Source of the DNA: an uncultured Opitutales bacterium
Lineage (GTDB): Bacteria; Verrucomicrobiota; Verrucomicrobiia; Opitutales; Seribacteraceae
NCBI GenBank assembly: GCA_943789375.1
Contig: CALSTX010000006.1
Coordinates: 62,001 to 126,000, forward strand
DNA: 64,000 nt
Reading direction: 5' to 3'
Positions within the stretch are counted from its first letter, which is position 1. Every line of letters begins with the position of its first letter. The notes beneath the pieces are model-generated. The model did no database searches. It saw only the letters and a program-made list of their open reading frames with translations, and was not told where the DNA came from. This document shows, in pieces, positions 867 through 63,653 of the stretch. Position numbers and translations under genes: made by a program.

Positions 867-2164
867 CTAATGACCTTTCAAAACATTCTTTGGAGTAAGG
901 TCATAGAACTCTTTAGTGGATTGAGCCGTTATCCCTTTTACGGATTGGTAATTTGACTTGATGATTCTCGGAGTGTTGCCCGACCATTCAGCGACTTCGC
1001 CAATGTGCTTAATGATTTTTAGGCGGTAGGTAATCGCAGTATGCCTCATCTGATCGTTTGCCCAAGAAGTTCGATTCTTCGCATCGCAATTTTCAACCAA
1101 TTTTTCTTTTCCGAATAAGTGCATGCTAGAAATCTGACTTTTACTGAGCTTGAAACCAGCACATGCCCGAACAAGGTTGAATAGCTTCGAGTGGTTTTGA
1201 GGAGTAAGTGAACCAGTCCTTTCTCTACTTTTGCAGTAATCAAGCCACTCAACGCAAATTGCGGGTAGTTCTACACTGCGAGTGTATTTGATTGAGCCTT
1301 TTCTGTGGCGGACTCGGATAATGTTTTCATCCCAATCAAGATCCTCCCATTCCCCGCGGATAATTTCGCTTGGTCTAACGCCCGCAAAGATACCAACTGC
1401 GAAGTAAGGAAGCATGCTCATGTCATCGATCTCAGTCGCGTAGTACAAAAGGTCTTTTGCCTGTTGGATTGAAAGTGAGATTGGTTCTTTCGTCTCCGTC
1501 GTTGGCTTATCGACCATTGATACAACATTGCTTCCAACAATCGCTTTCTTGAAGCACCATTGAAAAAAAGCATGAACAAATCTGTAATCATTCAACTTTG
1601 AGTGCGAGCCCGAACCTTTGTTTCGGTAGATCCATTCCTCTATCTCATTGTTCGAGATTGTGCCAATGTCTCGTTCGCCAAATGCAGTAGCAAAAGTGCT
1701 TGAGGCATCGACTTGGAACCATCTCGATGTCGGCTTTGAGCGATTGAGGAATTTCTCTTGCCCCACCATGTACAAGTCCCTTGCCTCGCTCACGGAATGG
1801 GTCTCGATGCCCTTTACGGGCGAGTCTATGAAAAACCTCAGTCCCTCGCGAACAAGCTCTTTGAGGGGTGTCTCATGGTCATCTAGCTGCTCTCTGATTT
1901 CATCGACAAGTCCCAATGATAGTGTTCATCTTCATCAGAGATTCTAGATTCACGAAATTCGTAATCTGCCTTGTCTTGCTTTTCCTTGATTTCAAGCAAG
2001 TGACGATAGGCTTGGGCTTTCTCAATGCGTCCTTTGCCCCAAAACTTTTTTCTCGGTCTCTTGCGATTGCCATTTTCGTTTCGCTCATTAGTGTAGCCAT
2101 CAACAACAAACCCTTTCTTTTTTCCTTCTGTGTACTTCTTAATTGTGAACTTGCTTGATCTCAT
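867..2164 (-). pseudogene. Tyrosine recombinase/phage integrase, split by a frameshift
   Basis: Two leftward frames make one integrase of about 430 residues. The first (2164 to 1883) has the N-terminal basic SAM-like start (MRSSKFTIKKY); the second (about 1916 to 867) has the rest of the core-binding domain and the catalytic domain. Catalytic signatures are Arg in GVRPSE, Arg-His in MRHTAITY, a Trp in the late His/Trp position (EWSGNTPR) and the nucleophile Tyr in SNYQSV. The frames join by a -1 shift around 1885-1925; no classic slippery heptamer is visible. The order fits an integrase family common in Verrucomicrobia. It may be inactive, recoded or a sequencing artefact. Its 5' end lies about 115 bases from tRNA-Thr. 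Confidence 0.75.
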
Positions 2165-31586: not shown

Positions 31587-32246
31587 ATGGTAAAAGCCAA
31601 AATTATGTTGAATCTGCCCAAATTCCTAAGGTTTTTTCTGCCTTTAGTCATGTGCTTGTGTGCAAGCGGGCAGTATACTCCTTCCGAATCTCCACTCAGT
31701 GAAGGGGGTGCTGCGATGCAAGTAACCCTGCCTGATGGTGCAAACACTAGTATTTACCGAATCCTTAAACCACCCTACGATTCTGTGACAAACAATGTGG
31801 TGGGCCAATTCGTTGATTCGTTAAGCCAAACAATTTCGACTTCACCCACTTTTTTCTTCACCCCAAGTGACCCCGATTATTCCGGTACTTTTTATGTAGA
31901 TTGGAATGGTACGAATTCTTCGACTGGAATTGTTACTGAAAATTCGTATCTCGGAAACCCTCAAAATGATTATCTCGTGGTCGTTGTTACATCCACCGAC
32001 GATGTTCCCGTTTTATACACGGGCTTGACAAATGCGAGCGATTCAAATGCAGCAGTTAGTTATCAGCAAAATGAAGGAACAAGCTTTGTCGCCTATGCCA
32101 GTGCTATTGATGCTGACGGTGGTTCTCCCTCGATCACAATTACTGGTGGAGTTGATCAAGCCCTTTTTAGTTATTCTGGAGGGCAAATCTTATTCAATAC
32201 AACATCAGGCTTTGACTACGAATTCCCTCAGGATTCAGACGGCTAA
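31587..32246 (+). CDS. N-terminal part of the giant cadherin-repeat surface protein (frameshifted)
   Basis: A 219-residue frame that begins the giant surface protein. It has a signal peptide (FLRFFLPLVMCLCASG, ATG 31587 or 31605), an unassigned beta-rich domain with a YSGTFYVDWNGT segment, and the first cadherin-like repeat (SYQQNEGTSFVAYASAIDADG to FDYEFPQDSDG). It stops at TAA 32244-32246 in the middle of a repeat. One extra base at about 32241-32244 would restore the frame, where NNQYIFEVTATDANG continues. It is therefore not a separate protein. See the entry at 32245. Confidence 0.8.
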   Translation: MVKAKIMLNLPKFLRFFLPLVMCLCASGQYTPSESPLSEGGAAMQVTLPDGANTSIYRILKPPYDSVTNNVVGQFVDSLSQTISTSPTFFFTPSDPDYSGTFYVDWNGTNSSTGIVTENSYLGNPQNDYLVVVVTSTDDVPVLYTGLTNASDSNAAVSYQQNEGTSFVAYASAIDADGGSPSITITGGVDQALFSYSGGQILFNTTSGFDYEFPQDSDG

Positions 32247-35200
32247 TAATCAATATATTTTTGAAGTTACTGCTACCGACGCTAATGGAAGCTCTGATAT
32301 GCAAGAAATTACTCTTACTATATCCGAAGTTAATGATAGTCCCACGATCGTGGATGGGAATAATGATCTTATTTTTACCATCGACGAGGATGAAAGTCCA
32401 ATTGCCTGGACGGACTATAATCTATTGGTTTCTGATCTGGACTCTAGTGATTTTACCTGGTCCATATCTTCCGTCGCTCAGAATGGAACCGTTTCAATTA
32501 CGGATAGTAACCAAGAATGTACAGTCAATTATTCCCCCGATGCTGACATGTGGGGTATAGATACCGGGGCATCTCCATCAGCGGGACAGACTGGTGTCGC
32601 CGATAAATTTACCATTCAGGTCGTCGACGACCGTGGTGGAGTCGATGAAATTACTTTTCGTGTTAAAGTGAATCCAGTGAACGATGATGACCCCGTGATA
32701 ACCTACCAAGGTGTTGTTGTAACCGATCCAGTGCTAGCTTTAACATTGGATGAGAATTCAGTGAATTCCATTTTGCTTTCAGCTCACGATTTTGATGATG
32801 GAGCCGTTCTTGCTTGGTCTTTATCTGGTGGTGATGATGAATCTTCATTTAGTATAGTTGCAAGTACTGGAGAGCTTCAATTTCTTTCAAGCTTGGATAT
32901 CGATTTTGAGGCTTCTTCTTCTTATGATGGGGATAGTATTTTTGAGTTTGCTGTTACTGTTTCCGATGAAAATGGACAATCTGATTCACAGGATTACACA
33001 TTGAGTGTCTTAGATTTAAATGAAGCCCCTATCATATCACCTACATCCTTGGTTGTTGTTATGGATGAAGATAATGCCACTTCTTTTATTGCCCCTCTTA
33101 CTGCAGAAGATCCTGATCTTCATAGTGCAAATAGTGGCTGGAGAACACTTACTTGGAGCATAGAAGATGTACCGTCTTATGGCACAGCTGTTGTGTCCGG
33201 TACTGCAGAATATAATGGCACCGAAGTAAGCCCAACTACGATTACCTTTACGCCAAATTCTGGTTACAGCGGATCAGATTTCATGAGAGTCAGAGTGGAA
33301 GATGAGGGAAATAGCTTGACCAGTAAATTGCATGACATTGTGGATATAAATATAACAATTCTACAAACCGATGACTTGCCTGTATTTTCTTCAGTCCTTC
33401 ATGATGGCAATGCTAGTGTGACATTACAGGTGACGGAAAACAGCTATGGTGATTTTCAGGTATATGCAACAGATCCAGATGGGGGTAATATTTCATATTC
33501 GATTCATCATGGAGATGACCAAGGATATTTTGAAATCAATGGTACGACCGGATGGGTTCGGTTTTTAGAGCCACCAAACTTTGAAAATAGGTTGGATTTA
33601 GACTCCCAAAATACTTACGAGGTTACGATAGAAGCTTATGACAGTAACGGGAGTTCTTTCCAAAATTTTTCGGTTCAAGTTGCGGATGTTTTTGAACCTG
33701 CAACTTTTGTGAGTGATTCCTATTTCTTTGTCCCCGAGAAACAATTAGAGGTTGGTACGGTAGCAGTTTCTGATGTCGATTCCGGCGATTCTCATTCTTT
33801 TTCCATCGTTCCTCAGGGGTATCCAGACGATTCTAGTAAATTCTCAATCGATGAAGATACAGGAGGAATTACATTTATAACCCCCCCTGATTTTGAAGCC
33901 AATGCCTCTTACTCGGCTAACAATCTTTATAATTTTATTGTTCAAGCTGTCGATAATGGGGGTGTACCATCAGATCTAAATGTCAGTGTTGAGGTTACTG
34001 ATGATAATGATGCTCCATCTATTGAAACAAGCAATAATGCATCTCTTGTCACTATTGCCGAGGATTTGGCGATTGGCCAAGTTTTTGTAGACTTTAATGT
34101 ATCGGATCAAGATCAAGACCAGTCCCATTCTTGGGCACTTTCAGGAGATGATTCCTCCTTTTTTATTGTGGACTCAAGTACAGGTGAACTTTCGCTTTTA
34201 ACTTCTTTGGATTACGAAATTCCAAGTGATGTAAACAGCGATAACTATTATGAATTATCACTTGTAGCTTCAGACAGTCATGGTTCTCCTCTTATTTCAA
34301 ATACTTTCGGTTTTCAAGTGCTTGTTGCGGGGGTTAATGAACCCCCTTATTTAAGCGGAACTGTTACAACATCGGTCTCAATGAATGAAGACGATCCGAG
34401 CTCCTTTATATCTCCTGCGTGGAGTGCGATTGACCCTGAGACAAACAGTAGTTTGGGTATTAACTGGTTCCTCTGGGATGAAACCACCGCATCTAAAGTA
34501 AATGCATTAACTACTCCCATCAATCATTCCTCTGTTTCCATCGGGCAACTTGATGGAGTTCTGACTTTTAATCCTGCACTCAATAGCAATCGCGATATGA
34601 ACGGTTCAGAAATCCTAACCGTCATTTTTGAGGACGAACAAGGAGTTGAGAGAAACCAAACCATTCAAGTTAATGTATTGGGTTTGAACGACCCGCCAGA
34701 GATTACTGGTCCTGACGTACCTTTTGTCGATATCATCGACCACAACGAATCAGTTTTGGAAGTTATTGATTTCGAAGCTAGTGATTTTAATGATGTTGGA
34801 GATAACAATGTACACTACACTCAGGACTTATACTTAGATTGGAATGTCTCCGGTGAAGATGCAGATTTGTTTGATATTTCAAACCAAGGCAGACTTTCTT
34901 TCAAAACAGCACCCGTTTACGATTCAGTAACTCTGCTGAATAACAGGTATGAAATCATCATCTCTGTAATAGATGAATTCGAAGGTTTTTCCGATTATCC
35001 TTTGGTCATTAATGTGCTGAACTCTTCAGAACCCCCCGAATTATTATCCAGCCTTTCGACAGTTTTCATTTCTGAGGACAATACACCGATAGCTTGGGGA
35101 GATGTTTGGGAGGATTTGCAAGTAGAAGATCCAGACGGTGGTTCTCTGACCTGGGCAATCATTAACAATGCGGCTAACGGGCAGGCTGAGGTGGATCTTT

Positions 35201-38200
35201 ATTCAGGGCTAATAAATTATGAACCTACCCAGGATTATTTCGGTGAGGATTCATTTGATGTGCAAGTAACGGATGAGGACGGTTTGACCTTAGACATTTC
35301 CATTCTTGTTGATATTGACCCAATAAATGACCCCCCGAGTATCAGTGATGCTGGCGATTTGAGTCGGGAGGAAAATGAAATAATACTTGTATGGGAGAAC
35401 AACGCGAGCGTTACTTCTTTTACGGGAAATGACTCTCATGATGTCGAGTTTAATAGCACAGAAACTGACTTTATATGGAGCCTTGATGGGACCGACGCAT
35501 CACATTTTACGATTGATTCAAATGCAGTTCTTAAATTTAGGTATGCACCAGACTTTGAACTACCCTTGGATGCCGATGGGGACAATCTTTACACCTTTAG
35601 TATCTTAGTTACGGATGATAGTGATATATTTGGTGAGTATCTAATAAGGGTTAGGGTCAGAAATAAGAATGAACCACCAGTTTTTACAAGCTTAGAAGGG
35701 GAACTAAGCGCTCAACTTTACATTACTGAAAATAGTTCCTTTGTTTACACGGTGCAGGCACAAGGAGTTGAAGAATCTGGTCAAGAAGTCAGTTTTGATT
35801 TATCGAATGAAATTGATAACAACAACTCTCTCTTCGAGTTCGACCTATTTGGATCTAATGAAATTTACTTTAAAGAAGGACCAGACTTTGAGAACCCGAT
35901 CGGTGTTGAAGAGCAAAATATTTACATTTTAGAAGTCAACGCGTCGGATGGATTATCATGGGAGGTTCAGCGGGTAGAAGTTTTTGTCACAGACATCAAT
36001 GAACCACTCGCATTCGAATCTGACAGCAGTTATGCAATAGACCATAATGAGAGTAATACTGGCTTTATTTTAGATTTATCTCAGTACTATTCAGACTCTG
36101 ATACAGATACTGCTTACCGAACTTATATTTTCTCTCTTGCTGAATCTTCCGATTCTCAATTCTTTTTAATTAATTCAACTACTGGCGAAATTACTTTTGA
36201 TGAATCCTTTTCACCAGATTTTGAAAATCCCTCAGATGAAAATGGAGATAACAAATTCATTCTCTCTGTAAATGTTGAAGATGGTCAAAATTTAATCACA
36301 CAAGAATTTACAATTCAAATTCTCGATGTTAATGACTTACCCAATATTCTAGGTGCGGATTTAACTGAAATAGTCATACCAGAAAATCAAGCTTTTGTTT
36401 CCAAATTGGAGGCCTTAGATCAAGATAGTAAACTATCTTTTCAGGATTTATCTATCGTGGTTGAGAACGAATCAATTTCTTGGTTAAGAAATTTGGAGCA
36501 GAATGAAGGTCGTTTCCTTGATCCTTCACTTATTGTGGACGGTATTGACGCATCTTTCTGTGCTAGTTCAGATTTTGATTTAGATGGAGATTTGGACTTA
36601 CTACTGCTCGAAGCAGATGCAGACAGAGTGACCATATATGAAAACAACGGAACAGGAGGCTTTACCAATTCCCATGTTGTCTATAGCGAATCAGGCAGTA
36701 ATCCACAGCATGCATTACTAAGAGATCTGAATGAGGATGGGTACCTTGATATTGTAGTCGCACTCAAAGATGTTGGAAGAGTGATTGTACTTCAGAGCAA
36801 TCCCGATGCCCCGTTCGACTTTGTTTCCATAGATTCAATTCTTGAATCGAGCAATGTAGTCCATGTTGATTGTGGAGATATTGACGGAGATGGTGATACA
36901 GATATAATCGCAACTGGTAAAGATTCTACCACATCTGAATATTATATCCATTGGTTTAGTAATGGAGGAGAATTTTGGTTTACTCAGCCCAATGAACAAT
37001 TGACATTTTCTGGTCCGTCGCTCTTAACCTTCAGCCTTTCGCAGGTAAACCAGCCAAAATCTTTGTCATTAGGTGACGTTGATCAAGATGGTGACACTGA
37101 TCTTGCTGTGGCTTCTTCATTGGATGGCAATTTCACCCTTTTTCGAAATGATGGAACTGGCATTTTTGATGATCCTGTCAGTATTTACTCTGAGACAGAT
37201 GGACAGGCACAGGGAGTTAAACTTGCAGACTTAAATGCTGACTCAAAGCTAGATATTGTGATCACTACTAAAAATTCCAGTAAATTAGGGGTGATTCTTC
37301 AATCTTCTATTGGTGGAGGTGAGTTTCTTTCCCCATCTTTTGTTTATAGTTCTTCTTTTTACATCAACTCTTTTGATATCGGAGATATTGATGGTGATGG
37401 AGATTTGGATATTGTTGCGGCAGCTGGTGCTGATTCAAATGTTAGATGGTTTCAGAATGATGGTTCTGGTAAATTTACCATCAATGAGGAAATGGCCCTT
37501 ACAGACCAAACTTCAGTAGTATCTGTTTCTTTGGGAGATTTCAGCCAAACGAACACATTACTTAGATTCAGTATTGATGAATCAAGTGAGGACGCAGAGC
37601 ACTTTGTTTTCCGACCGAAGTATTCAGGTAATTTATATTTCAGGGAGGAACCGAATTTTGAGCTTCCTACTGATACAGATGAGGACAATCAGTATGAAAT
37701 TAAAATTTTGGTTGCAGACAACGATGCAGACCCCACGTCAGAAGTAATGGAAAAGGTTGTCATTAATATTGATAATTTGTACGAAGCTCCAGTCATTCAG
37801 GAGCCGACAGTTCAAGAAGGCAGAAGCCTTCAAGTAATGGAGCACACGCAGTTTGTAACAGATGTTAATGCAACCAATGATGAAGATTTATATGAAGATA
37901 CATTTTTCTCAATTTCTGGTGGTTTGGACGCAGACTTTTTTACCATTGATGAGATTACAGGAGTCTTGGAATTTGTCAGCGGACCAGATTATGAAAATCC
38001 TTTAGACGATTTCTCTGATGGAAATAATTCTTACCATGTAGTGGTTCGTGCGAACGACAATGGACCTGGGACCGCTTTTTCTGAGATTGATTTGATGGTT
38101 GCTGTGATAGATGGGAATGATTTGCCTGAATTCAATGTTGACCCTTCAGTGCTTTCGATAGACCTACCTGAGGATACACTTCACCTCTTAGCTTTAAGCG

Positions 38201-40380
38201 ATTTAAATGCGTCTGACCCAGAAGGTAGTGCACTAAACTGGTCGATTGTTGAGAATGGGACTATTGGGGGGGCAACCATTGAAGGAGATGAACTACATTA
38301 TCAACCATTTGACGACCTAAGCGGTTCTGATGAAGTAATACTTGAAGTAATGGACAGTGCTGGTTTGAAAGCCCAAATAGCAATTGAGTTCACGATTACT
38401 CCTGTTAACGACTCTCCGGTAATAAGTACAGAGAACAACTTAAGTCATCCAGAGAATCTTTCCACGATTATTACCTTGGAAGCAACTGATATAGAGGGAG
38501 ATGACTTGGCTTGGAGCCTAGTTGGAGGAGTTGATCTAGAATTCTTTTCTTTGTCTGCAAATGGCGACTTGTCCTTTACAGGAAATCCGCCTGACTTTGA
38601 GATTCCTGACTCCAACAAATCCGATAACTTTTATGAGGTGTCTGTTTTAGTTTCCGACGGAGACGCTTCTGAAGAAACAACCTTGACCGTTGAGGTCGTA
38701 GATATTGCTGATATTGACCCCGTCATTCATAACTTAGATGAGAATTTAACGAATTCACTTAGTGTTATGGAAAATGAATTTTTTGTTTTAGATTTAAACT
38801 TTTCGGATATTGAGGGAGATGAAATTGAGCTTTCACTCTCGGGAGGCCAAGACATGGCAATGTTTGACTTGAGTCAAGTTGGCAGGTTGACCTTTGTAGC
38901 AGCCCCAAACTTTGAAAATCCAAATGATTCCAACTCTGACAACCTGTATGAGGTTGATTTAAATGCGAGTGATGGGATCAATGCCATTACTCGTTCCCTA
39001 GTGGTTCAAGTGGTGAATGTTAACGAAGAATCCCCTCGAATTACTTCTTTTTTGGGTACGACTGATGACCCTGTTACACTTTCCGAAAATGAAGCTTTTG
39101 TTGTTGATCTCGAGGCTTCTGACGATGTGAATGGAAGTATATCATATGCGTTATCTGATGGATCTGATGCTCACATGTTTGACCTCAATACAAGCACAGG
39201 TGCTTTATCTTTTAAGCAATCTTATATCCCTGATTTTGAAACCATAAGATCAAGCAGAAGTGACCATATTTACGTTGTAGGAGTTCAAGTCTCGGATGAT
39301 GTCTACACATCCAAAAGTTATGATTTGTTTATAGGGGTTCTGGATGTTGACGAACCTCCAACCTTGCGACAATCGAGTTTTGAATTGATGGAAGACCCTT
39401 CGAGTGCGGTTTTACTAGGTGTAGAAGTATATGACCCAGAGGGCGATTCATTTGATTTTGACTTTTTAAGATCTCCGGATTTTGGGACTCTAGAATCTGC
39501 TAGTGGTGGCTATCTGTATATGCCGGAATTAGACTTTAACGGGGAAGATACGATTCAGTTTTTAGTTATTGATGATGAGAATGTAAGTCTCGAGCTAACT
39601 GCCACCATTTCTGTAAAAGCAGTTAATGACCCGCCTACAGCCTCGGATGATGTGATTGAGTATAACTCAACATCACTTGCACCCTTGATGTTTTCAACAC
39701 TTGGGAACGATTCAATTTCCCCAGACGATAATGAAACGATTGAAATCACTGATTGGAGTAAAAGTGCTTCCATTGATTACAATTTCGAAAGTGAACGCTT
39801 TACCTATACCCCAGACCCTCAGTTTATTGGTCCATTTGAATTTTCATACACGCTTTACGATGGTCAATTAACTTCTTCAGCAAATGTCACCGTGGATGTT
39901 TTGAGTTCTCCTAACCTGCCTGGTTGGCAATATCTGCCTGGTTTTGGGTATATGATGCGTAATCAATATCCATGGGTTTTACACGGCAGAATTGGATGGC
40001 TTTATATTTCACAAGACGGGGGCGAGAATTCTGCATCATGGATGTGGAATCAAGAGCTTGGTTGGTTTTGGACAGGTAAAGAATACTTTGAGCATTTTTT
40101 TGCAGAGGAGACCCAAAAATGGTATTATTGGCAAGGTGGAGTGTATGAGCCAGAAGGCATCCTTCTTTTCGATTTTGCACAGAACAAATTTATCGAAATG
40201 GCTGTTTACCAAAAGCAAAGAGTTAGCTTTGTCTTAAATTTGTTAACGGATGCCTCAGGCAGGATAGAATATGTTAGTTCCAGTAGCTACTTTTCTTCAG
40301 AACAGAAACAAGTCATTGTTTCGGAGCTTTATTTTACCAGACAATCTCCTACGCTTGAAAATCTATTGAGAGAAGATTAG
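32245..40380 (+). CDS. Giant cadherin-repeat surface protein, main frame (about 2711 residues)
   Basis: The continuation of the frame at 31587; with it the protein would reach about 2930 residues. At least 13 further cadherin-like repeats show the pattern DFE(N/L)P-D-DN-Y-V-D (e.g. DFELPLDADGDNLYTF, NFENPNDSNSDNLYEV). About seven Ig/VCBS-like domains ending NDPP or NDSP alternate with them. An FG-GAP/VCBS block with DxDxDGDxD loops (36540-37550) interrupts one repeat. The C-terminus (about 39900-40190) is a Trp-rich module (LPGWQYLPGFGY, HGRIGWLYI, WMWNQELGWFWT, KWYYWQGG) found on exported verrucomicrobial proteins. Acidic composition fits Ca2+ binding. An outer-membrane barrel gene follows with no gap. 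Confidence 0.88.
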   Translation, partial: NNQYIFEVTATDANGSSDMQEITLTISEVNDSPTIVDGNNDLIFTIDEDESPIAWTDYNLLVSDLDSSDFTWSISSVAQNGTVSITDSNQECTVNYSPDADMWGIDTGASPSAGQTGVADKFTIQVVDDRGGVDEITFRVKVNPVNDDDPVITYQGVVVTDPVLALTLDENSVNSILLSAHDFDDGAVLAWSLSGGDDESSFSIVASTGELQFLSSLDIDFEASSSYDGDSIFEFAVTVSDENGQSDSQDYTLSVLDLNEAPIISPTSLVVVMDEDNATSFIAPLTAEDPDLHSANSGWRTLTWSIEDVPSYGTAVVSGTAEYNGTEVSPTTITFTPNSGYSGSDFMRVRVEDEGNSLTSKLHDIVDINITILQTDDLPVFSSVLHDGNASVTLQVTENSYGDFQVYATDPDGGNISYSIHHGDDQGYFEINGTTGWVRFLEPPNFENRLDLDSQNTYEVTIEAYDSNGSSFQNFSVQVADVFEPATFVSDSYFFVPEKQLEVGTVAVSDVDSGDSHSFSIVPQGYPDDSSKFSIDEDTGGITFITPPDFEANASYSANNLYNFIVQAVDNGGVPSDLNVSVEVTDDNDAPSIETSNNASLVTIAEDLAIGQVFVDFNVSDQDQDQSHSWALSGDDSSFFIVDSSTGELSLLTSLDYEIPSDVNSDNYYELSLVASDSHGSPLISNTFGFQVLVAGVNEPPYLSGTVTTSVSMNEDDPSSFISPAWSAIDPETNSSLGINWFLWDETTASKVNALTTPINHSSVSIGQLDGVLTFNPALNSNRDMNGSEILTVIFEDEQGVERNQTIQVNVLGLNDPPEITGPDVPFVDIIDHNESVLEVIDFEASDFNDVGDNNVHYTQDLYLDWNVSGEDADLFDISNQGRLSFKTAPVYDSVTLLNNRYEIIISVIDEFEGFSDYPLVINVLNSSEPPELLSSLSTVFISEDNTPIAWGDVWEDLQVEDPDGGSLTWAIINNAANGQAEVDLYSGLINYEPTQDYFGEDSFDVQVTDEDGLTLDISILVDIDPINDPPSISDAGDLSREENEIILVWENNASVTSFTGNDSHDVEFNSTETDFIWSLDGTDASHFTIDSNAVLKFRYAPDFELPLDADGDNLYTFSILVTDDSDIFGEYLIRVRVRNKNEPPVFTSLEGELSAQLYITENSSFVYTVQAQGVEESGQEVSFDLSNEIDNNNSLFEFDLFGSNEIYFKEGPDFENPIGVEEQNIYILEVNASDGLSWEVQRVEVFVTDINEPLAFESDSSYAIDHNESNTGFILDLSQYYSDSDTDTAYRTYIFSLAESSDSQFFLINSTTGEITFDESFSPDFENPSDENGDNKFILSVNVEDGQNLITQEFTIQILDVNDLPNILGADLTEIVIPENQAFVSKLEALDQDSKLSFQDLSIVVENESISWLRNLEQNEGRFLDPSLIVDGIDASFCASSDFDLDGDLDLLLLEADADRVTIYENNGTGGFTNSHVVYSESGSNPQHALLRDLNEDGYLDIVVALKDVGRVIVLQSNPDAPFDFVSIDSILESSNVVHVDCGDIDGDGDTDIIATGKDSTTSEYYIHWFSNGGEFWFTQPNEQLTFSGPSLLTFSLSQVNQPKSLSLGDVDQDGDTDLAVASSLDGNFTLFRNDGTGIFDDPVSIYSETDGQAQGVKLADLNADSKLDIVITTKNSSKLGVILQSSIGGGEFLSPSFVYSSSFYINSFDIGDIDGDGDLDIVAAAGADSNVRWFQNDGSGKFTINEEMALTDQTSVVSVSLGDFSQTNTLLRFSIDESSEDAEHFVFRPKYSGNLYFREEPNFELPTDTDEDNQYEIKILVADNDADPTSEVMEKVVINIDNLYEAPVIQEPTVQEGRSLQVMEHTQFVTDVNATNDEDLYEDTFFSISGGLDADFFTIDEITGVLEFVSGPDYENPLDDFSDGNNSYHVVVRANDNGPGTAFSEIDLMVAVIDGNDLPEFNVDPSVLSIDLPEDTLHLLALSDLNASDPEGSALNWSIVENGTIGGATIEGDELHYQPFDDLSGSDEVILEVMDSAGLKAQIAIEFTITPVNDSPVISTENNLSHPENLSTIITLEATDIEGDDLAWSLVGGVDLEFFSLSANGDLSFTGNPPDFEIPDSNKSDNFYEVSVLVSDGDASEETTLTVEVVDIADIDPVIHNLDENLTNSLSVMENEFFVLDLNFSDIEGDEIELSLSGGQDMAMFDLSQVGRLTFVAAPNFENPNDSNSDNLYEVDLNASDGINAITRSLVVQVVNVNEESPRITSFLGTTDDPVTLSENEAFVVDLEASDDVNGSISYALSDGSDAHMFDLNTSTGALSFKQSYIPDFETIRSSRSDHIYVVGVQVSDDVYTSKSYDLFIGVLDVDEPPTLRQSSFELMEDPSSAVLLGVEVYDPEGDSFDFDFLRSPDFGTLESASGGYLYMPELDFNGEDTIQFLVIDDENVSLELTATISVKAVNDPPTASDDVIEYNSTSLAPLMFSTLGNDSISPDDNETIEITDWSKSASIDYNFESERFTYTPDPQFIGPFEFSYTLYDGQLTSSANVTVDVLSSPNLPGWQYLPGFGYMMRNQYPWVLHGRIGWLYISQDGGENSASWMWNQELGWFWTGKEYFEHFFAEETQKWYYWQGGVYEPEGILLFDFAQNKFIEMAVYQKQRVSFVLNLLTDASGRIEYVSSSSYFSSEQKQVIVSELYFTRQSPTLENLLRED

Positions 40381-50607: not shown

Positions 50608-50982
50608 CTAAAGGTCGCTTGGGGTTAGTTTTTCCGCGTCTTTCCAAAGGTGGTCCAATGCATAGTTTTCACGCTGTTCTTTTGAAAATAGGTGAACCAC
50701 AAAGTCAATGGCATCTAGGATAAGCCATCCACTTGGTTGAAACCGGTCTTTTGATAAGATTTCTATATTATTTTCTTTCAAGGTTTTTTCTACATTGTTG
50801 CGCAGAGCCTTGAGGTGAGGATCGGAAGTCCCGGTTGCGATAATGAAGCAATCTGTAAGAGGAGACTTTTCCCCAAAATAGAGAAGTTGGAGATCTTCCG
50901 CTTTCTTATCAAGTAATGCTTCACAAGCAAGGGATAGGTTTTGCCTGAGTTCTTTTTTATTTTTAGGAATTGAAAAACTCAT
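50608..50982 (-). CDS. rsfS: Ribosomal silencing factor RsfS
   Basis: A 124-residue Iojap-family protein (DCFIIATGTSDPHLKAL, then GWLILDAIDFVVHLF, EQRENYALDHLW). RsfS binds L14 on the large subunit and prevents ribosome joining in starved cells. It follows nadD by two bases, the usual bacterial pairing. The 208 bases beyond it toward tRNA-Leu hold no feature I can support. Confidence 0.95.
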   Translation of the reverse strand: MSFSIPKNKKELRQNLSLACEALLDKKAEDLQLLYFGEKSPLTDCFIIATGTSDPHLKALRNNVEKTLKENNIEILSKDRFQPSGWLILDAIDFVVHLFSKEQRENYALDHLWKDAEKLTPSDL

Positions 50983-50984
50983 AT

Positions 50985-51596
50985 TTAATTCGAGTAGGTT
51001 AATAAATGTTTGGTTTGGAGATAGGTGTAAACATCGTCGGGAACCATGCCTTTGATGGAGTCGCCTCTATGGAGATGATCGCGAATAGATGTGGAAGAAG
51101 CTGAAAATAACGAGTTATTCATTAAAGTAAAGCTAAGCTCAGGGAAGGAGGGATGGGAAGGATGAAGATGATCCCTTGCAAAAACAATAAAATGAACAGC
51201 TAGGGATAGTTCATTAAGAAACTTCCATTTGGATAATCGAACGAACTGATCGTAGCCAATAAGTAGAAGGATCTCCGCATCTGGGTATAACTTTTTGACC
51301 TCTTGGATCGTTTGCCAGGTGTAAGAGGTTTGTTTTTGATTTATTTCAAAATCGAAAATACTTATTTTTGGGTTCTTTTTCGCTACCAGCCTAACCATCT
51401 CAAGCCTTTGCTCGGCCGTGAATAAAGGTGGATGGTTTCGTAGTGGTGCCTGATAAGCTGGGCACAGAAGAAGTTGATCTAATTGAAATTCTTTGATCGC
51501 TTCTTCAGAAATGAATTTATGACCATTGTGGATAGGGTCAAATGTTCCCCCTAAAAAACCAATTTTGCGCAGAGGTGGGCCAGATAAATTAGGCAT
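50985..51596 (-). CDS. nadD: Nicotinate-nucleotide adenylyltransferase NadD
   Basis: A 203-residue nucleotidyltransferase that joins nicotinate mononucleotide to AMP in NAD synthesis. Motifs are GGTFDPIHNGHKF (substrate HxGH), LIGYDQFVRLSKW and the C-terminal SASSTSIRDHLHRG (ISSTxIR). It lies between the diadenylate cyclase (6 bases upstream) and rsfS. Confidence 0.96.
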   Translation of the reverse strand: MPNLSGPPLRKIGFLGGTFDPIHNGHKFISEEAIKEFQLDQLLLCPAYQAPLRNHPPLFTAEQRLEMVRLVAKKNPKISIFDFEINQKQTSYTWQTIQEVKKLYPDAEILLLIGYDQFVRLSKWKFLNELSLAVHFIVFARDHLHPSHPSFPELSFTLMNNSLFSASSTSIRDHLHRGDSIKGMVPDDVYTYLQTKHLLTYSN

Positions 51597-51602
51597 GCAA
51601 AA

Positions 51603-52958
51603 TTACAGTGCCCGTCCTTCAGATTTTTCAAATAAGGTAAACATTCTACCTTTCCTGAAATAAGTGACCTGCCCAGAAGAAGAGACGACAAGAGCGAGAG
51701 AATCAGTGACAAATGTAATAGCTGCCGCTGCCGCGTGGCGGGTACCGAGACCTCCGGGTAAATCAATTTCATCTGCCTTAGCTTGGATTAAACATCCAGC
51801 TGATTCAACCACGCCATCTCCTCGCAAAATAAAGGCACCATCAATCAAGGCTAGTTCCTTAATGGTCTCATCCATAAAAGGGTTCAATATACTACGATCC
51901 TCAGCTCCGTATCCGTGGAATGGGTTAAGTACCAATTGTTTAGATCTTTTAATCACTTCTTCGTGATCACCGAGCACGAACATAGCTCCGATTGACTGCC
52001 CCTCGCGTCCAGCGGTAGCCAGGTCGGTCGCGATAGCGGTAATTCTCTCTAAGGCTTCAGCCGAAACATCATTGGGTAACATCTCATCACCCTGTCCAAT
52101 TACAGATTCAAACTCTTCATCTACATCAACGACCAGAACAGTATCAAATTGCCCACTTCCGGGTATCCCTCCAATACAGCAAACTCGATCTTGGAAACCG
52201 AAAATATCACGGGTTAAGCCAAGGAGGATGGCTGCTCGTAACTGTGACAACCGAGAACGGGATAATGTACGCACCGCAAGGGTAGCATCCGCACGATGAT
52301 GTGCTTGATCTTCTTCTGACACTCCTTCTCCCGCCAAAACAACCTTAAATGTAGGAAACGTCATTCTTGGAGCTAAGCTTGGAGGAAACACATCCGTAAA
52401 AACTAAAATAGTTGAGCATTCTGCAGCCTTAGCTATTTTTGCAGCTTCGTCTGTCAAGAGTTTGTTAAATTTGGTTCTCCTTCGGGCTGGGCGGTCATCA
52501 GTTCCAATAAAAGCACTTCTAACTGCGGTCTTAAACTCAGCTTTTTCCCGTGCCATCCACAACTGATCCATGGTAGATTTGTCTTGGAATGTGCGGGCAA
52601 GGGAAGCAAGGAAGGAAAGGTAATTCTTCGCTTTTTTACTAGCCAGAAGAAGAAAAACAAATCGGATATCTTCGTAACTGTCTTTCCCTTCGAAAGTGAG
52701 CCCAGCAGGGCATCTGCCAATAGCCAGGGCGTAAGGTCTTTTCATGTCAACCCGAGCATGGGGGAGGGCCACACCTTCCCCGATGTAGCTAGTCATTGAA
52801 TGCTCGCGATCCACTAGCTCATTGAGTACTTTTCTTCGTTTGGGGGCAGTTGGAAGTGCGGTTCCAAAGGTGTTTAATAGTTCAGAGTATGCAGATTTTA
52901 AATCTTTACTGGAAAGATCAATAATTCGATTACTCGCAATGTATAAGTCAATTCTCAT
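51603..52958 (-). CDS. Diadenylate cyclase fused to a PTS EIIA domain
   Basis: A 451-residue protein with three parts. Residues 1-150 are a PTS EIIA type-2 (fructose/nitrogen-type) domain with phospho-accepting His67 in GEGVALPHAR and the following LTFEGKDSYEDIRFVFLLLA. Residues of about 160-290 resemble the pyruvate-kinase C-terminal-like domain found in archaeal DacZ (STILVFTDVF, CIGGIPGSGQFDTVLVVDVD). Residues of about 295-445 form a DisA_N diadenylate cyclase core with DGA at 373-375 and GTRHAA at 405-410. The last motif reads RHA rather than RHR, as in DacZ-like enzymes. It should make c-di-AMP, with the EIIA domain as a likely sensor. It lies upstream of nadD-rsfS. Confidence 0.88.
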   Translation of the reverse strand: MRIDLYIASNRIIDLSSKDLKSAYSELLNTFGTALPTAPKRRKVLNELVDREHSMTSYIGEGVALPHARVDMKRPYALAIGRCPAGLTFEGKDSYEDIRFVFLLLASKKAKNYLSFLASLARTFQDKSTMDQLWMAREKAEFKTAVRSAFIGTDDRPARRRTKFNKLLTDEAAKIAKAAECSTILVFTDVFPPSLAPRMTFPTFKVVLAGEGVSEEDQAHHRADATLAVRTLSRSRLSQLRAAILLGLTRDIFGFQDRVCCIGGIPGSGQFDTVLVVDVDEEFESVIGQGDEMLPNDVSAEALERITAIATDLATAGREGQSIGAMFVLGDHEEVIKRSKQLVLNPFHGYGAEDRSILNPFMDETIKELALIDGAFILRGDGVVESAGCLIQAKADEIDLPGGLGTRHAAAAAITFVTDSLALVVSSSGQVTYFRKGRMFTLFEKSEGRAL

Positions 52959-53013
52959 CGCTCAAAGGCAGGCTAGCCGGCATACGGCATGCCGAAAAAA
53001 AAAAACGGGCAAT

Positions 53014-53388
53014 TTACTTTTCCCACTCGAGGGCACCGCTTTTTAATTCGTAAATTAAGCCCGCAACAAGCACGAATGTGAAGAAAAGCATTGGCCCTAA
53101 GATTGGAATCCCTGCCGCCACAAAATCACGGTGCGTTAATACCCAAGGGATTAGGAAAACTACATCAATATCAAATAGGATAAAAAGCATAGCCGTAACA
53201 TAAAACTTTACAGAATAACGAGTTTCTCCCTTTGTATCAGCAGCTAATCCACATTCATAGGGAGAATCCTTGATTTTACTCCGAGTAGCACGCTGACCGA
53301 AGATATGACTAGCAACAAGTATTCCTACACCGATGCTGAGAGCAATGAATATTTGTATTAAAACGGGTAAATAATCGCTTAATGTCAC
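53014..53388 (-). CDS. nuoA: NADH-quinone oxidoreductase subunit A
   Basis: About 124 residues from GTG 53388 (MTLSDYLPVLIQIF); the longer frame to 53481 lacks family match. Three membrane segments and the conserved loop SPYECGL with KFYVTAMLFILFDIDVVF are complete. NuoA is a membrane subunit of complex I. No other nuo gene lies beside it: the cyclase follows and the secretion operon is divergent, so the rest of the complex is elsewhere. Confidence 0.95.
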   Translation of the reverse strand: MTLSDYLPVLIQIFIALSIGVGILVASHIFGQRATRSKIKDSPYECGLAADTKGETRYSVKFYVTAMLFILFDIDVVFLIPWVLTHRDFVAAGIPILGPMLFFTFVLVAGLIYELKSGALEWEK

Positions 53389-53542
53389 GCCGCAATTTTT
53401 ACTGGAATGTAAGTGCTGGGCAAGATTATTCGTTTTATTGAATACATTCCTTGCATTCTGAATGCTTGCCTTTCCTACCAATAATACCTTTAAAAGGTGT
53501 ATGAATTTAAATTACCGTTCTCTTAAGGATAAAAAAAATAAA

Positions 53543-61427: not shown

Positions 61428-63653
61428 ATGAAGGAAGAAGAGAAGCTAGATGCAGAGGATTCAGAAACCACCAATGATTCTGTCCCAGAGCTTTCTATAG
61501 ATTCCCAGGATCATATGACCTGGTGGCCTGAGTTATCTGATTTAGACCGGCTCAATGTACTTGGTGCTCATAGAGAGGATCGAGCCCGCCTATTAGCTTC
61601 TAAAGATTCAAGGTCAGTAGAAGTGACTATGAAAGAAATTGCCCGAAAGTCAGGTTATTCTTTTGTGGAGGAGTTTAACTTATCCAAAAACCCTACGAAA
61701 CTTCTGCCTCTAAGGCTAATTCACTCCTTTTCTTGTTTGCCGGTTGTGCCTGCGATTGAAGGGTCCAAAGAAAAACCTAAGGTTTTGTGTGTGGATGATG
61801 AAAAAGCTATTCTTCAGGGTTTCAAACTTCACTTGAGGAACGATTTTGAAGTACATGTGGCTTCGTGCGGAGATGAGGGGATAGAAATATTTAAAAAAGA
61901 AGGTGATTTCTCCATAGTTTTATCGGATATGAGAATGCCTGGGATGAGTGGTTCAAGTATGTTAACTGAAATTAGAAAGATAGACCCTCAGATTGTAAGT
62001 GTTTTAATTACTGGTCATTCAGATTTTGAGATTGCCAAAGATGCGATTAATTCAGGAAACGTTTTCAAAATTTTAACCAAGCCCTGCCCAGCTGAAAAAT
62101 TAATTGAAGTGCTGAAAGATGGCGTGAAGCAATTTGACCAAAATGTTGGTAACAAGCTTCTATTGAAACCTGATGGTGGCAATATACACCTTTTAACATT
62201 ATGGCCGCCAACTGAAAGAATGAGCCGTTGGGTATTTGCGGTATCTGGCCGTAAACCTATCTGGTTTCTGGGGCTTCCTGAGAAGGTAACCAGTGCAATT
62301 ACTGAAAACTTTGGTATCGGAGCTGATAGCCTAGATGATTCTGATCTGGATATTGACGGGGAGGAAGAACAGCAGGACGATTTAGAGGATCAAAATGCCG
62401 CTATTATTCGTTTTGTAAACGAGGTCATTCAAAAAGCGATAGTAGATCGGGCTACTGATATTCACTTTGAACCTCACAAAGAAACCCTACAGATTAGATA
62501 TAGAATTGATGGGCAACTGGTACCTGTACGGGTTCCAGATAATCTTCGAAGTTTTCAAGATGCGATCATTTCCCGGATAAAAATAATGGGGGGGATTAAT
62601 ATATCTGAAAAGAGAAGGCCTCAAGGTGGGCGGATTACCTTTAACCATGGTCAAAGTGATCTTGATATCCGGGTCTCCACCTTGCCCACATTGTATGGAG
62701 AAAGTATCAGCCTGCGCCTGCTCAATGAAAAGTCTCAACCCCTCTCCATGCAGGAACTCGGGCTTCTTGGGCAGGATGAAAAAAACATTGTCAATGTCTT
62801 AGAAAAACCACACGGCATTGTGTTGGTTACCGGACCCACAGGTTCAGGTAAATCGACTTCATTAACCGCATTCATTCGAAGGATTCATAAGCCGGAAAGA
62901 AGGATAATGACAGTTGAAGATCCAGTGGAATATGAAGTTGCTGGAATTAACCAAACGCAGGTTAATGCAGAGATAGGATTTACTTTTGCGAGTGCACTTA
63001 GAGAGATTTTGCGACAAGACCCCGATGTTATCATGGTCGGAGAAATTAGGGACCGAGAAACGGCAGATATTGCCATTCGAGCATCCCTAACTGGCCACCT
63101 TGTTTTAAGTACTCTTCATACCAATGATGCACCAGGTGCGATTACTCGATTAGTTGATATGGAAATCGAGCCTTTCTTGATTGCATCCTCCGTGGAGATG
63201 GTCATTGCCCAGCGGTTAGTTCGTAGGCTTTGCCCAAAATGTGCAACGCCAGCCAAAATGAAGGATTCTGAGCTACTTGCTTCTCTTGCTTTATTAGGGG
63301 TTGATGCAGAGGAAAGTAAAGATGGTAAATCAGTGCTTAATGCGGTTGGTTGTCCAAATTGCCAAAACTTAGGCTACCGCGGCCGTGTTGGTATTTTTGA
63401 ATTGATGAAAATGAGTGACGCCATTCACAGTATGGTGATTAAAAATGCTTCAGCTCCTGACATAAGAGAAATTGCATTGGAGGAAGGAATGAGCACACTA
63501 CAGGAGACTGGTTGGGCCCAGATTAAGCGGGGATTCACCACTTTTGAGGAAGTCATCCGCTATTCGGATGGTATGATGGAAGAAGATGGTGAAATCACTG
63601 AGATTGATGCACCTGAAGGGTCTTTACCTCCTGTAACAGAATTTAAGAATTAG
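61428..63653 (+). CDS. gspE: Type II secretion ATPase GspE with inserted receiver domain
   Basis: A 741-residue ATPase. The N-terminal GspE domain begins at about 35 and is interrupted after [13 protein letters not shown] (about 100-113). A full response-regulator receiver domain follows at about 117-233: acidic pair Asp123/Asp124, phospho-acceptor Asp167 (LSDMRMPG), Thr195 (LITGHSD) and Lys218 (LTKPC). The interrupted domain then resumes ([20 protein letters not shown]). The ATPase has Walker [10 protein letters not shown] (469-477), the Asp box [20 protein letters not shown] and the four-Cys zinc site (CPKC, CPNC). The insertion suggests secretion controlled by phosphorylation. Confidence 0.93.

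Follow-up and report, generated by a model that had tools for sequence, protein, structure and literature searches.

The classes of diadenylate cyclase go back to a scheme that Corrigan and Gruendling reportedly set up in 2013, and that is said to note an EIIA domain. A class called DacD is, we take it, defined by a DacZ-like cyclase (DAC) domain preceded by EIIA_2. The window, a stretch of 64,000 nucleotides from contig CALSTX010000006.1 of an uncultured Opitutales bacterium, encodes a protein built in this way (Table 1). In passages of PMC6741144, DacD is named as a bacterial class with representatives in Opitutae, Coraliomargarita, Lacunisphaera, Puniceicoccaceae and Verrucomicrobia. A previous interpretation of the locus, made from the letters of the DNA (the sequence-only reading), had put the architecture outside the known cyclase classes. 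This did not hold, because its list of classes was incomplete, and we rejected the idea of an unnamed class since the name DacD is already in use in that paper. The window protein is most likely a member of DacD, assigned by its architecture and by the kind of organism and not by alignment to the accessions listed for the class. What is new against the literature searched is the setting: this DacD protein is the sole EIIA_2 of a phosphotransferase system (PTS) without a detectable PTS_EIIC, and it co-occurs with a putative hydrolase for cyclic di-AMP (c-di-AMP). No paper describing an EIIA-cyclase fusion was found in a literature search that judged papers by titles, abstract starts and passages, most subscription papers being outside its reach. 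Also, a term search of the text of a 2026 review of PTS-Ntr (PMC13104625) gave no hits for diadenylate, c-di-AMP, fusion or fused.

Each of the three parts of the protein, PTS_EIIA_2, DacZ_P and DAC, scores above its curated Pfam cut-off in the window protein, and the EIIA and DacZ_P domains are the only ones to do so ahead of DAC. PTS_EIIA_2 (PF00359) was matched with 68.3 bits against a cut-off of 27, the phospho-acceptor histidine (His67) being present, and DAC (PF02457) with 72.8 bits against a cut-off of 27, with the DGA and RH motifs in place. The predicted folds are those of a PtsN-like EIIA, a pyruvate-kinase C-domain and a CdaA/DisA-like DAC; the whole-protein model has a predicted TM-score (pTM) of 0.52 and does not fix the relative arrangement of the domains. 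Thus, the three-part architecture put forward in the sequence-only reading is borne out by Pfam matches and predicted folds, as is the pyruvate-kinase-C-like nature of the middle segment (DacZ_P match and fold of the predicted model). Its intact phospho-histidine site at His67 and its cyclase motifs, DGA at residues 373-375 and GTRH at 405-408, were found where it had located them. It had also likened the cyclase half to DacZ, which agrees with its match to a protein of the haloarchaeon Haladaptatus that is annotated as DacZ (35% identity in 141 aligned columns). The names given to homologues by JGI already carry both functions. At least three listed homologues (P0202, P0207 and P0223, one of them from Rubellicoccus peritrichatus) are fusion proteins whose public records bear the label 'PTS sugar transporter subunit IIA', so that the cyclase is hidden there.

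The window protein is very probably a diadenylate cyclase. In an alignment of 37 rows, hand-picked for diversity, drawn without G065, G068 and G073 and reaching down to 37% identity to the window protein, D373, G374, R407 and H408 are found in all rows and A375 in 35. At its third position, the RHR motif has Ala in the window protein (RHA) and His in the archaeal DacZ of Haladaptatus (RHH). A dead cyclase, for want of the second Arg of RHR, was considered and rejected because the Haladaptatus protein, annotated as DacZ, is also without that Arg. DacZ of H. volcanii is reported, in passages of PMC6741144, to be active with manganese, the motif compared here being that of the Haladaptatus and not of the H. 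volcanii protein.

Enzyme I (EI) and HPr, whose absence the sequence-only reading had named beforehand as refuting, are both present in the assembly from which the window comes (G000; 92% complete). The two genes are convergent neighbours on contig C4. EI has 591 residues and three domains of phosphoenolpyruvate (PEP)-utiliser families, the only families found in it at the cut-off used, with no extra sensor domain; HPr has 99 residues and a HARP motif, recognized by eye. One gene each was counted for EI, HPr, DAC and a PgpH-family hydrolase, the last in a phoH-pgpH-ybeY-like order (phoH and ybeY named by eye). The sole PTS_EIIA_2 and the sole DAC found in the genome are those of the window fusion protein. 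PTS_EIIC (PF02378) had no match in this incomplete assembly, where other EIIC families were not searched, and EIIA-man had no match either, in a search that did not extend to EIIA_1 and lactose-type EIIA.

A survey of relatives for the same architecture and for EI and HPr, which the sequence-only reading had proposed, covered 75 genomes, G000 included. The EIIA-DAC fusion was found in 60 of them, in 58 as a single open reading frame (ORF) and in 2 split at contig ends; this identical architecture rules out a chance ORF or a frameshift artefact. Matches to EIIA_2 were found in 61 genomes, to DAC in 62, to HPr in 65, to EI in 64 and to the PgpH family in 65, PTS_EIIC being detected in three and EIIA-man in one. 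No EIIA_2 outside the DAC fusion was found in 52 of the 60 fusion-bearing genomes; the carriers with an additional EIIA_2 are G028, G043, G050, G053, G061, G062, G072 and G074. In 43 high-quality genomes, DAC and the PgpH family co-occur (40/40 vs 1/3, p 0.0033). At least 462 relatives were confirmed in a scan of named genomes, and the best 80 of these were kept (loci L099-L178); the record titles among the best 80 read Opitutales, Opitutia, Puniceicoccaceae, Opitutaceae, Coraliomargarita, Cerasicoccus, Verrucomicrobia and similar. The protein of L099, from an Opitutales record, is 98% identical to the window protein. L150, from a record titled Pseudomonadales, is a typical Opitutales-like copy with 52% identity, and the record is probably mistitled or a mixed metagenome-assembled genome. 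G071 has, beside the fusion, a second DAC gene of a different kind (L016, a 402-aa frame). In two nearly complete genomes, G058 and G059, neither DAC nor the PgpH family was found, yet EI and HPr are kept; G059 has one EIIA_2, not fused to DAC.

Because the sole EIIA_2 found in the genome is fused to the cyclase, a phosphorylation relay likely ends at the window protein. On balance, we lean towards a transport-free PTS with a c-di-AMP synthase as its terminal acceptor, in which phosphorylation would set the activity of the cyclase. The sequence-only reading, too, had supposed that c-di-AMP synthesis would respond to the state of the PTS. Phosphoryl groups would pass from PEP to EI, to HPr and then to His67 of the fusion protein, and HPr probably phosphorylates this residue. 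Depending on whether His67 is phosphorylated, the DAC core would be held differently by the EIIA and PK_C-like domains. This core probably must pair with a second DAC to join two ATPs. The C-domain of pyruvate kinase binds fructose-1,6-bisphosphate or AMP, and the PK_C-like domain may contribute a small-molecule input. The product, c-di-AMP, would be removed by the PgpH-family hydrolase. The families searched yielded no sugar-transport EII, so that what the phosphorylation state reflects would be the PEP:pyruvate balance and not incoming sugar.

The output of such a relay may be sought in potassium, which c-di-AMP controls in Firmicutes. In E. coli, unphosphorylated PtsN binds and inhibits a K+/H+ antiporter, according to the abstract of PMC11808508, and PtsN acts on KdpD, according to passages of PMC6488665. 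By analogy, the most likely output would be potassium or osmotic homeostasis matched to carbon status. We would guess that the unphosphorylated form, at low PEP, is the one changing c-di-AMP output, in either direction. Somewhat more doubtful, as a tentative idea, is that the Opitutales PTS has been reduced to a single-wire fuel gauge, running from PEP through EI and HPr to an EIIA built into the c-di-AMP synthase. The pyruvate-kinase regulatory domain might then read a second glycolytic signal, c-di-AMP might be a carbon-state messenger, and the potassium circuits of PtsN and of c-di-AMP might be one protein.

The alternative that survives best, which we nevertheless consider unlikely, is that the EIIA serves for regulation in a structural or ligand-binding role and has lost its phosphorylation in most of the family. 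Together with the PK_C-like part it would likely control DAC pairing via metabolites alone, and EI and HPr would have other clients. Against this stands the conservation of the site in the diverse alignment, where His67 is found in 35 and Arg51 in 32 of the 37 rows, as well as the rarity, noted above, of EIIA_2 outside the fusion. Moreover, decay of the site accompanies the loss of EI, though not independently of phylogeny. Five small genomes of 0.9-1.1 Mb without EI (G046, G065, G066, G068 and G073) all have an altered EIIA active site, Arg51 being changed in three, the EIIA degenerate in one and absent in one; the cyclase motifs are retained. For a wider count we left out the window copy (the same as G000), the second DAC of G071, the unfused EIIA of G059 and two DAC-only fragments. 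Arg51 and His67 were then both intact in 31/35 EI-bearing rows against 1/6 EI-less rows (Fisher p 0.0009; 41 rows with completeness of at least 90 and no contamination filter), and in 49/53 against 4/9 when all 62 rows were taken (p 0.0019). Separately, G066 was seen to encode an HPr with a HARP motif at 1687-1983 (+) of its locus L085, no EI being found in this 1.1-Mb genome.

Several observations weigh against the favoured relay, and some of them speak for an unphosphorylated EIIA. The second active-site His of PtsN, which presumably carries weight in catalysis, is replaced by Tyr113 in an alignment to PtsN 4gqx, and Tyr is found at this position in 37/37 rows of the diverse alignment. Of five EIIA loci outside DAC fusions that were aligned, four have His there and one has Tyr; the latter is the G074 copy, the one scoring closest to the DacD profile. 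His67 is Tyr in G043 and G069, members of one family, despite the presence of EI and HPr, and Arg51 is absent from G050 and G052, also despite EI and HPr. Conversely, His67 is retained in the EI-less G046, G066 and G068, and the domain itself persists in G046 and G068, two genomes that gave no match to EI or HPr. G058 has EI and HPr without a match to EIIA_2, DAC or the PgpH family, which suggests that at least there EI and HPr serve another role. In the tree, the small genomes group together and long branches meet. A test of the link between EI and the active site by independent pairs had 3 pairs to use, all on starred branches, and gave p 1 by the sign test; the association is therefore not phylogenetically independent. 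Gln51 is common to the EI-less G066 and its EI-bearing tree sister G052, and so the change from Arg need not follow the loss of EI. In the 43 high-quality genomes, the presence of DAC showed no association with HPr or with EI (Fisher p 1.0 each), and among the 40 of them that bear DAC, 6 are without HPr and 6 without EI. Finally, no c-di-AMP riboswitch was found in G000, with 37 of 54 candidates scored under stricter filters, and one was found in 1/75 genomes, under stricter filters and with the candidates partly scored in many genomes.

A further alternative, which we regard as improbable, reverses the direction of signalling: the DAC/PK_C part, with ATP, c-di-AMP or a metabolite bound, would likely set the acceptor state of the EIIA, and the fusion would serve as a sink for phosphate or, in the manner of PtsN, regulate other proteins such as potassium transporters or kinases. 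That the EIIA is most PtsN-like, together with the binding of unphosphorylated PtsN to the antiporter (abstract of PMC11808508), is consistent with this possibility, but the DAC motifs persist in G065 and G073 although their EIIA is gone or has degenerated, suggesting that the cyclase is the retained output. Least probable of all is an ordinary housekeeping cyclase in which the EIIA is left over from an ancient gene fusion and plays no active part, which would fit the wide occurrence of the fusion (60/75), its variable downstream neighbours and the carriers in which HPr or EI was not found, but not the invariance of E52, G62 and P66 and the presence of Y58, H67 and R69 in at least 90% of the rows of the diverse alignment, with its identities down to 37%.

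The gene lies just downstream of nuoA in 65/78 eligible named loci, a linkage deeper than any downstream linkage tested. Downstream, nadD directly adjoins in 25/73 eligible loci, a linkage detected among closer relatives only, and rsfS is found in 25/72; a nadD/rsfS operon was dropped as a functional clue. The neighbours were looked for by tblastn, the window's own proteins serving as queries, and more distant copies could have escaped. The gap between nuoA and the dacD-type gene (52959-53013, minus strand) holds a T run and a CGGCATGCCG palindrome. A scan for promoters and terminators near the gene gave 3 promoter-like matches against 6.6 in shuffles and 4 terminator-like matches against 3.5. 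Elsewhere in the window, a T2SSE ATPase of type II secretion (61428-63653, +), adjoining genes for a secretin and for T2SS protein K, has a response-regulator receiver domain (119-229) fused N-terminally, and a single ORF of 2782 aa occupies 32032-40380 (+).

Table 1. Positions in the window of the dacD-type gene, its domain matches and its neighbours
Feature	Position	Strand	Remarks
dacD-type gene, 451 aa: EIIA (PtsN-like), PK_C-like/DacZ_P, DAC	51603..52958	-	ORF, Pfam, predicted model
PTS_EIIA_2 match, residues 42-143	52530..52835	-	candidate phospho-acceptor His67; Arg51 intact; Tyr113 for second active-site His
DacZ_P match, residues 167-282	52113..52460	-	predicted fold of pyruvate-kinase C-terminal (allosteric) domain
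DAC (diadenylate cyclase) match, residues 314-438	51645..52019	-	DGA 373-375, GTRH 405-408; third RHR residue Ala
nuoA (Oxidored_q4)	53014..53481	-	55 bases upstream, same direction as dacD-type gene
nadD-like gene (Pfam CTP_transf_like)	50985..51596	-	6 bases downstream of dacD-type gene
rsfS	50608..50982	-	next downstream after nadD-like gene

The signals that set c-di-AMP levels are largely unknown, as stated in the abstract of PMC11323494. A candidate signal is encoded here in the protein itself, with an EIIA of the phosphorylatable type, in a genome that also encodes EI and HPr, and a predicted pyruvate-kinase regulatory fold. With no EIIA_2 outside the fusion in most carriers and PTS_EIIC in so few genomes, the relay can be tested in vitro without a transport background. 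If true, it would join the literature on PtsN and potassium with that on c-di-AMP and potassium.

Among the known systems, the CdaA, DisA, CdaS and CdaM cyclases have in common with the window protein a DAC with DGA and TRH motifs, but it scores 15 to 33 bits in these classes against cut-offs of 188.8 to 225 (26.3 bits against 188.8 for the CdaA equivalog TIGR00159). PtsN (EIIA-Ntr) is the best match, in both sequence and fold, of its first 150 residues. The window EIIA differs from PtsN in being fused to a cyclase and in having Tyr for the second active-site His, and it reaches 43.3 bits against the cut-off of 138.7 for the PtsN equivalog TIGR01419. The organisms of the DacD class are of the same kind as the source of the window, in a comparison that did not take in the sequences of the listed accessions, and neither an EIIA domain nor a PTS setting is described in the passages of PMC6741144 consulted. 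With archaeal DacZ and DacY-CdaZ the window protein shares the DAC core and a middle domain of PK_C fold, on the DacZ side partly according to passages of PMC6741144, and with the Haladaptatus DacZ, besides the identity given above, a residue other than Arg at the third RHR place. It scores 99.1 bits against the cut-off of 430 for the DacZ equivalog NF041371, and what sets it apart from the archaeal proteins is the extra EIIA domain at its N-terminus.
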